Assembly (NCBI GenBank): GCA_027310365.1
Contig: DAIDAY010000005.1
Coordinates: 1 to 43,705 of the forward strand
Reading direction: 5' to 3'
DNA: 43,705 nt
Origin: a bacterium
Lineage (GTDB): Bacteria > Patescibacteriota > Minisyncoccia > UBA6257 > GWB1-50-10
Positions 24,111 to 29,060 of the stretch are shown one piece after another. The translations under genes were made by a program, and so were the position numbers. Each line of letters starts with the position of its first letter. Position 1 is the stretch's first letter. The notes under the pieces were generated by a model that was given only the letters and a program-made list of their open reading frames with translations, made no database searches and was not told the origin of the DNA.

Positions 24111-24145
24111 AGCTCTCCGCCCTCAAGCACGAGAGCTTCTCGGAT

Positions 24146-24174
24146 TGGACAAAGACGGGAAATTGAAATATAAT
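24146..24174 (+). promoter_or_regulatory. Promoter of the intron-containing tRNA-Phe
   Basis: TGGACA-N17-TATAAT. Confidence 0.65.
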
Positions 24175-24195: not shown

Positions 24196-24474
24196 GCCGT
24201 GGTAGCTCAGTGGTAGAGCATTCGCCTAAACTCTTTGGGCACCGGTTCAGTAATGAGCCGGAGAAAACTGGGTGAATTCGGGGAAACTTCGCACGAACAA
24301 TCCCGAGCCGAGCCCCAATACAGGATTGGGGAAGGTGTAGAGACTATCCTTTCGAGGAGTACTCCGACAGGTGAGTCGGGGGAAGCGCCCAGCTCCGCGC
24401 AAGCGGATGATGATATAGTCCAACTTCGCAGGAAGAGCGATTGGTCGGGGGTTCGATTCCCTCCCGCGGCACCA
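24196..24474 (+). tRNA. tRNA-Phe(GAA) interrupted by a group I intron (exons 24196-24227 and 24432-24474; CCA encoded)
   Basis: Joined exons: GCCGTGGTAGCTCAGTGGTAGAGCATTCGCCT|GAAGAGCGATTGGTCGGGGGTTCGATTCCCTCCCGCGGCACCA; loop CTGAAGA; 7-bp acceptor and 5-bp T stem intact. Confidence 0.88.
24228..24431 (+). other. ORF-less group I intron (204 nt) in tRNA-Phe
   Basis: P1: exon GCCU / IGS GGGC with terminal U-G pair; P10: CUCUUU (intron) / GAAGAG (3' exon); terminal omega G at 24431; P7-like AGACTATC...GATATAGTCC. Confidence 0.88.
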
Positions 24475-24554
24475 ATACAGAACGAATTGGTTCGAATTTG
24501 GTCATATTATTGCACCAAGACAAAACTCACCAACTCATTCAAAATGAACAAGCG

Positions 24555-25313
24555 ATGGGTAATAATCTCTTAGAAGTTAAAGACTTGTCTGTCGTCCTGG
24601 ACGGCAAGCACATCATCCAAAACATTTCCTTCGGTTTGAGGTCGCAGGAAGTCTTGGCTGTTATCGGCCCGAACGGCGCCGGGAAATCGGCGCTCCTCAA
24701 AACCATCACCGGCATCGTCAAAAAAACAAGCGGTGAAGTCGTGTTCGCGCCGGGGGTAAAAATCGGTTACCTCCCCCAGCGTTTCCACGTCGATTTCTAT
24801 CTTCCCATGACCGTCAAAGAATTCTTAAGGCTGAAGCCGGACCACAAGTATTCGCTCGGCGAGGTATTGAAACTCGTCGACATTCCCGAAATATGGCTCA
24901 ATCAGAATCTTGCGACGTTTTCGAGCGGGCAGCTGCAGAAGATACTGCTCGCGTGGGCCATCATCGATCAGCCGGACATTCTCCTCTTCGACGAACCGAC
25001 CGAGAACGTCGACATCGTATCGCAGGAATCCATCTACGACCTGCTCCACGAACTCCAGGATGCACTGGGAATCTCGGTCATCATCGTCTCCCACGACTTG
25101 AATGTGGTCTACAAGTACGCAAACGCCGTTTTGTGCCTCAACGAAAAAATGCTCTGCTACGGAGAGCCATCGTCGCTGACGAACGAAACGCTTTCAGCGC
25201 TCTACGGCGACCATGCCTTCTTCCACCACCACCATTTTGGAGAGCATCGCAACACCAACAACGAGAACGGCGAAACCTTAGGTTCCCCGTCTTCAATAAA
25301 TTCCAATGATTGA
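24555..25313 (+). CDS. Metal ABC transporter ATP-binding protein (ZnuC/MntB-like)
   Basis: GPNGAGKSALLK, LATFSSGQLQKILLAWAI, DILLFDEPTENVD, His-rich C-terminus. Confidence 0.88.
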   Translation: MGNNLLEVKDLSVVLDGKHIIQNISFGLRSQEVLAVIGPNGAGKSALLKTITGIVKKTSGEVVFAPGVKIGYLPQRFHVDFYLPMTVKEFLRLKPDHKYSLGEVLKLVDIPEIWLNQNLATFSSGQLQKILLAWAIIDQPDILLFDEPTENVDIVSQESIYDLLHELQDALGISVIIVSHDLNVVYKYANAVLCLNEKMLCYGEPSSLTNETLSALYGDHAFFHHHHFGEHRNTNNENGETLGSPSSINSND

Positions 25314-28885: not shown

Positions 28886-29060
28886 AAAAAACTCCCAGCC
28901 AGACGACATTCCCGAAGGAATGCTCATATCAGTTTCCTGATATGATACCGTTAACGTCAACCCTGACTAGGAGTTCTTTATTGCTAACGGCTCTTTTCGA
29001 CCATACCGCCTTGATTTTTAAAGCCAAAATGGGTTAGGTCTCTCTTACTAAGTCGTGCCG
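28886..29060 (-). ncRNA. Structured ncRNA with own promoter and terminator
   Basis: Extended -10 TGTTATACT; CAUUCC-UUCG-GGAAUG and AUAUCAG-GAAA-CUGAUAU hairpins enclosed by AACUCCUAGUCAG/CUGGCUGGGAGUU (13 bp with G-U pairs), followed by a TTTTTT run. Confidence 0.65.

Follow-up and report, generated by a model that had tools for sequence, protein, structure and literature searches.

A group I intron at U33|G34 of tRNA-Phe(GAA), recurrent in the CPR, with a predicted hairpin shared by the intron tail and the anticodon stem

Known bacterial hosts of group I introns include tRNA-Leu, tRNA-fMet, tRNA-Ile, and tRNA-Arg. The introns of Azoarcus tRNA-Ile(CAU) and Agrobacterium tRNA-Arg(CCU) are small and ORF-less, like the bacterial tRNA intron described here, but have another host tRNA and site and, in the classical cases, the IC3 architecture. 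The known 34/35 tRNA intron is also ORF-less and of similar size, interrupts an essential tRNA within its anticodon loop, and builds P1 and P10 on the anticodon arm, whereas here the host is tRNA-Phe, the site is 33/34, and two extra helices, P7.1 and P7.2, are situated between P7 and P3'. Most of the described bacterial and plastid tRNA group I introns reside at 37/38 (PMC4033280). According to the tRNAscan-SE authors, group I introns in tRNA-fMet and tRNA-Ile2 are known to make annotation tools overlook the host tRNA (PMC8450103), and the tRNA-Phe introns can hide their hosts likewise. In the same radiation as our locus, the CPR, group I introns are frequent in RNA genes; the published survey, however, concerns 16S and 23S rRNA, and the word tRNA is absent from its text (PMC11270868). 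Some tRNAs of circularized genomes, nearly all of them CPR, are stated to have group I introns and to be hard to detect; these are introns of the same kind, the relevant passages of that paper giving no host, site, or structure (PMC8172020). Thus CPR tRNA group I introns are already mentioned in print, and the new elements are the host tRNA, its insertion site, the recurrence throughout the CPR, and a predicted hybrid hairpin spanning the 3' splice site. In the open-access papers searched, no report of a tRNA-Phe host, a 33/34 site, or such a hairpin was found, and priority is uncertain.

The window, that is, the whole analyzed stretch of 43,705 nt, contains the interrupted gene at 24196-24474 of the forward strand, which also carries all other features listed below unless noted. 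When long introns are allowed, ARAGORN reports here a tRNA-Phe with anticodon gaa and an intron of length 204 at position 33, and without introns the gene is not reported. The 5' exon (24196-24227, tRNA positions 1-33), delimited by ARAGORN and by exon pairing, ends at U33; the intron occupies 24228-24431; and the 3' exon (24432-24474) contains the G34A35A36 anticodon, the T arm, the acceptor strand, and the encoded CCA (24472-24474). As the first-pass annotation had proposed, the halves join into a complete tRNA-Phe with CCA, and ARAGORN places the junction identically. The joined exons form a cloverleaf with the GAA anticodon, with 7/7 pairs in the acceptor stem, 4/4 in the D stem, 4/5 in the anticodon stem, where a U27·U43 mismatch is found, and 5/5 in the T stem. 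The encoded CCA is absent from the congeners L136, L158, and L162, and occurs in 20 of the 67 tRNA-Phe precursors considered below. The proposed upstream promoter corresponds to a promoter-like site TGGACA-N17-TATAAT at 24146-24174, recognized by consensus match only (11/12 positions); two such sites were found in the region, with 0.4 expected. The blastn alignment of the window with L136 starts at 24145, and the -10 region of L136 is weaker. The gene is preceded by a gene for a protein with a peptidoglycan-binding domain and followed by genes for an ABC transporter ATPase and an ABC-3 permease. Further downstream, a LOOT RNA (RF03000, 49.7 bits) is located at 28907-29040 on the reverse strand, upstream of two tRNA genes.

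By all the defining features that a sequence can show, the window intron is confirmed as a group I intron, predicted to be self-splicing. The Rfam model RF00028 matches 24218-24442 with 51.9 bits, only just above the gathering score of 50; the E value, calculated over the whole window, is 1.8e-10. Independent tests upheld the Phe(GAA) host, the insertion between U33 and G34, and the length of 204 nt. Helices P1, P2, P3, P4, P5, P6, P6a, P7, P7.1, P7.2, P8, and P10, placed by hand, all pair in the window. The P1, P10, and terminal G of the first-pass annotation could all be placed. P1 (24224-24240) is formed by the exon end GCCU (24224-24227) and the internal guide GGGC (24237-24240) and ends with the U33·G pair that marks the 5' splice site; 100% of its alignment cells are paired, with compensatory changes between exon and guide. 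In P10, CUCUUU (24231-24236) forms six base pairs with GAAGAG of the 3' exon (24432-24437; 96.4% paired), and the terminal G is at 24431. The P2 hairpin (24242-24261) has eight base pairs, all with both-side changes; the 5' strand of P3 (24268-24274) pairs with 24386-24392 (99.7% paired); P4 (24278-24306) consists of 24278-24282/24302-24306 and is capped by a short P5 (24288-24290/24295-24297); and the adjacent P6 and P6a (24307-24336) comprise 24307-24309/24334-24336 and 24313-24318/24326-24331, respectively. Of the P7-like pair AGACTA/TAGTCC noted earlier, the five pairs GACUA (24342-24346)/UAGUC (24416-24420) stand and make the P3/P7 pseudoknot, whereas the flanking A and C do not pair. Between P7 and P3' lie P7.1 (24347-24350/24355-24358) and P7.2 (24362-24368/24375-24381), which together (24347-24381) define what we call the A-type architecture and which we take to be an IA-like trait, unlike the classical IC3 tRNA introns. 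The P8 hairpin (24394-24407) was placed by hand and by the alignment. Folded alone, the window precursor recovers the acceptor, D, and T arms, P1-P6, P7.1, P7.2, P8, and the 3' hairpin discussed below, the single-sequence folding program being unable to draw the pseudoknots P7 and P10. The intron was rightly described as ORF-less, the longest listed ORF touching it (24235-24573) having a TTG start and running through the tRNA. As for a homing endonuclease, no ATG ORF longer than 68 aa was found in any of the 67 tRNA-Phe introns.

The pattern of P7', terminal G, and tRNA-Phe 3' half, which occurs once in the window and with a mean of 0.00 in its shuffled versions, was found in 70 contigs from a collection of 84,980 species. 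In 66 of them, as well as in the window, the intron is at U33|G34, preceded by a 5' half that pairs in the acceptor stem, D arm, and anticodon stem (the terminal G, being required by the pattern, is not independent evidence in these relatives); in the other four, the 5' half was not found on the examined stretch. All intron-bearing contigs whose record names a lineage are from the CPR, including Yanofskybacteria, Wolfebacteria, Liptonbacteria, Giovannonibacteria, Moraniibacteriota, Gracilibacteria, Berkelbacteria, and Peregrinibacteria, and those titled merely 'bacterium' presumably belong there as well. A viral collection gave 0 contigs with the same pattern. In a phylum-wide sample, the tRNA-Phe intron is present in 6 of 380 genomes, the window's genome included. 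Within the GTDB family, RF00028 matches were found in 28 of 42 genomes, the tRNA-Phe intron in 11 (again counting the window's), an uninterrupted tRNA-Phe in 25, and neither form in six; the ten intron-bearing genomes other than the window's showed no uninterrupted copy. The Val, Pro, and Gly labels of L140, L172, and L187 were replaced by tRNA-Phe after the exon test. The ARAGORN labels Thr(TGT), Ser(CGA), and SeC of several introns proved to be misplacements, the hosts being read as tRNA-Asn(GUU) interrupted at 35|36 or as tRNA-fMet from P1, the terminal G, and exon pairing, and the RF00028 matches L059, L069, L073, L074, and L084 were dismissed as tRNA introns, being located in rRNA genes.

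P1 has at least four base pairs in 67/67 precursors, the script having looked only for a G opposite U33. Pairing between exon and guide reaches 90.7% with own exons and 74.5% when exons are swapped, and that in P10 91.3% and 86.6%, respectively, 0 of 1,000 swaps being as high in either case. In an alignment of 56 precursors, 90.1% of cells are paired, both-side changes are seen in 45 of 79 pairs, including those between exon and guide in P1, and the covariation score is 0.361 versus 0.131 after shuffling, a control that ignores relatedness. When the partners are slid by 1-3 columns, pairing falls to at most 49%; this control keeps relatedness but favors a structure derived from one member of the alignment. 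In the conserved core P3-P8, helices P3, P4, and P6a covary, whereas the strands of P7 are complementary but invariant and thus supply no covariation evidence for P7 itself. A change from C-G to U-A in P10 links the intron with tRNA position 37. The covariation of P1 and P10 with the exons across species is as expected if splicing is under selection.

The window's genome is an assembly of 747 kb with 45 Rfam tRNA matches. According to ARAGORN, none of these matches is a second tRNA-Phe, and a search of the genome with the spliced sequence, extended to E 10, retrieved only the two halves in the window and weak matches to other tRNAs. Hence the earlier argument that the cell, if it has no other tRNA-Phe, would depend on splicing of this one holds as far as the assembly shows. 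RF00028 has five matches in the genome: one in the window, one in a tRNA of contig C84, and three weaker ones on contig C3. The C84 gene (L039 2728-2994), labeled SeC by ARAGORN, was reassigned by P1 (CUGU/GCAG), the terminal G, and exon pairing to a tRNA-Asn(GUU) interrupted at 35|36, which is the only Asn tRNA found in the genome. The C3 matches (C3:9000-24000, L047), two of about 40 bits and one of 24, lie in a 23S rRNA gene region.

We conclude that the locus is very probably a group I ribozyme inserted at U33|G34 of an apparently sole tRNA-Phe(GAA), with predicted guanosine-dependent self-splicing. The interrupted gene could instead be a dying or non-functional copy, with an intact tRNA-Phe in an assembly gap and translation independent of splicing. 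The genome is indeed in 84 contigs, at an estimated completeness of 98.8%, and a few other isoacceptors, for instance, Gln(UUG) and Ser(UGA), are also absent from the ARAGORN tRNA list. The empty search for a second copy, the lack of an uninterrupted gene in the ten intron-bearing relatives, and the covariation of P1 and P10 with the exons nevertheless make this improbable, as do four species of the window's genus, in which the exons are identical while the introns differ by about 8-10%. The anticodon loop also houses protein-spliced introns (PMC4033280), and insertion there could point to removal by a tRNA splicing endonuclease as in archaea, the group I core being a relic. However, the endonuclease family PF01974 has no match in the genome (four archaeal controls were positive), the site is 33/34 rather than the canonical 37/38, and both the guide pairings and the catalytic core show conservation and covariation, so that we regard protein splicing as extremely improbable. 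Chance, a pseudogene, and a protein-spliced intron were all considered as explanations and rejected.

Most of the CPR tRNA-Phe introns lack a P9 hairpin, and their tail is predicted to pair with the 3' strand of the anticodon stem. Introns with at most 20 nt between P7' and the terminal G are too short there to accommodate a separate P9 hairpin. Among 50 such introns, 27 have a tail that pairs at 5/5 positions with exon positions 39-43; when exons are swapped, the mean is 9.5 and the maximum 16. In the 17 introns whose 3' stretch is longer, a P9 hairpin is mostly visible and no full five-pair match occurs. In 29 of 46 introns, the predicted fold has a GGAA tetraloop that contains the 3' splice site; the mean energy of the tail-exon folds is -7.3 kcal/mol with own exons versus -4.7 kcal/mol with swapped ones, and 0 of 200 swaps reached the observed value. 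The tail-exon columns are 74.6% paired, compared to 63.1% after shuffling and at most 56% after sliding. The analysis of the tail pairing as a whole was chosen after the data were seen. In the window, the candidate hairpin (24426-24440), proposed from folding and from covariation in the relatives, consists of intron UCGC (24426-24429) and exon GCGA (24437-24440, tRNA positions 39-42), its 7-nt loop containing the terminal G 24431 and G34; having fewer pairs than most relatives, it is a weaker instance, the hairpin being strongest in B-type introns such as L128. The complementarity might be only a residue of exon co-conversion, or of an insertion that copied part of the 5' strand of the anticodon stem, in which case the hairpin would have no function, while the remainder of the splicing model would stand. 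The tail is indeed often the same as exon positions 27-31, with agreement at 163 of 215 positions across 43 introns. Nevertheless, 41 of the 52 differences still pair, 36 of these being C to U opposite G (a count inflated by selection of the 43 introns for pairing), and the energy advantage of own exons, the drop in covariation when columns are slid, and the absence of full matches from introns with a P9 hairpin also speak against a residue, which we therefore consider unlikely.

Under the self-splicing model, the precursor would fold with the acceptor, D, and T arms already formed. The exon end GCCU would pair with the guide GGGC in P1, and an exogenous guanosine bound in P7 would attack after U33. 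With the 5' strand of the anticodon stem engaged in P1, the 3' strand is left partly unpaired, and before the second step the intron tail may hold it in the hairpin across the 3' splice site. P10 and the terminal G would then bring in the 3' exon, U33 would join G34, and ligation would restore the anticodon loop CU-GAA-GA. Exon position 39 in the window, and positions 37-39 in many relatives, are shared by the hairpin and P10, so that the hairpin would have to open at least partly for exon ligation; the order of the steps is likewise a prediction. The chances seem to us evenly balanced that the CPR tRNA-Phe introns form a lineage that has replaced the P9 hairpin by a joint hairpin of intron tail and anticodon stem, in which a GNRA tetraloop often contains the 3' splice site, such that an element built by the host would first retain the 3' exon and afterwards give way to P10. 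We know of no description of such a 3' splice-site switch in group I introns.

On the SecY tree, at least seven changes of intron presence or absence are needed among the scored genomes. In one species of the window's genus, the tRNA-Phe within the same His-Phe-Pro-Arg neighborhood is intact and has an anticodon arm unlike that of the intron-bearing congeners, and the nearest intron outside the genus, in a Liptonbacteria genome, is accompanied by the same unusual anticodon arm as theirs. A-type introns are found in the window's genus and B-type introns in the neighboring genus g16. Given this patchy presence and the different subtypes in neighboring genera, repeated gain or loss at this site is probable, and the data suggest that, on more than one occasion, the intron was gained along with flanking exon or the gene was transferred as a whole. 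In the intron tree, many branches of which are poorly supported, the B-type is a supported clade (SH-aLRT 99) inside the A-type, three tRNA-Asn introns are placed weakly among the A-type, and the fMet introns of the family form separate lineages; the trees give no direction of transfer. The patchy presence within genera, with no encoded endonuclease, raises the question of how the tRNA-Phe introns move.

A single-copy tRNA for both Phe codons thus appears to be ribozyme-dependent in a lineage of reduced genomes. As this dependence recurs across many CPR groups, the absence of tRNA-Phe from CPR annotation can be a failure of detection. The 67 precursors, with their natural exon variation, also constitute a test bed for the reading of tRNA exons by group I introns.

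Several further introns were observed. The tRNA-fMet genes of three family members (L060, L062, and L071) seem to bear group I introns, at U33|C34 in L060 and L062. The tRNA-Asn intron of the family member G041 (L056 1238-1663) contains a 141-aa ORF, whose HNH match is just below the Pfam cut-off (E 0.00043). In B-type introns (L128, L163, L173, and others), GUGAGUCCCAACAAUAAUC is conserved in a single hairpin between P7 and P3', which replaces P7.1 and P7.2. Finally, a repeat-like sequence CTTCGCTNNAGCTWYGGATTGCAAGCAAGCT is common to L141 6330-6360, L149 5736-5766, and L174 2008-2038, and in L141 and L174 it lies within the P6 region of the intron.
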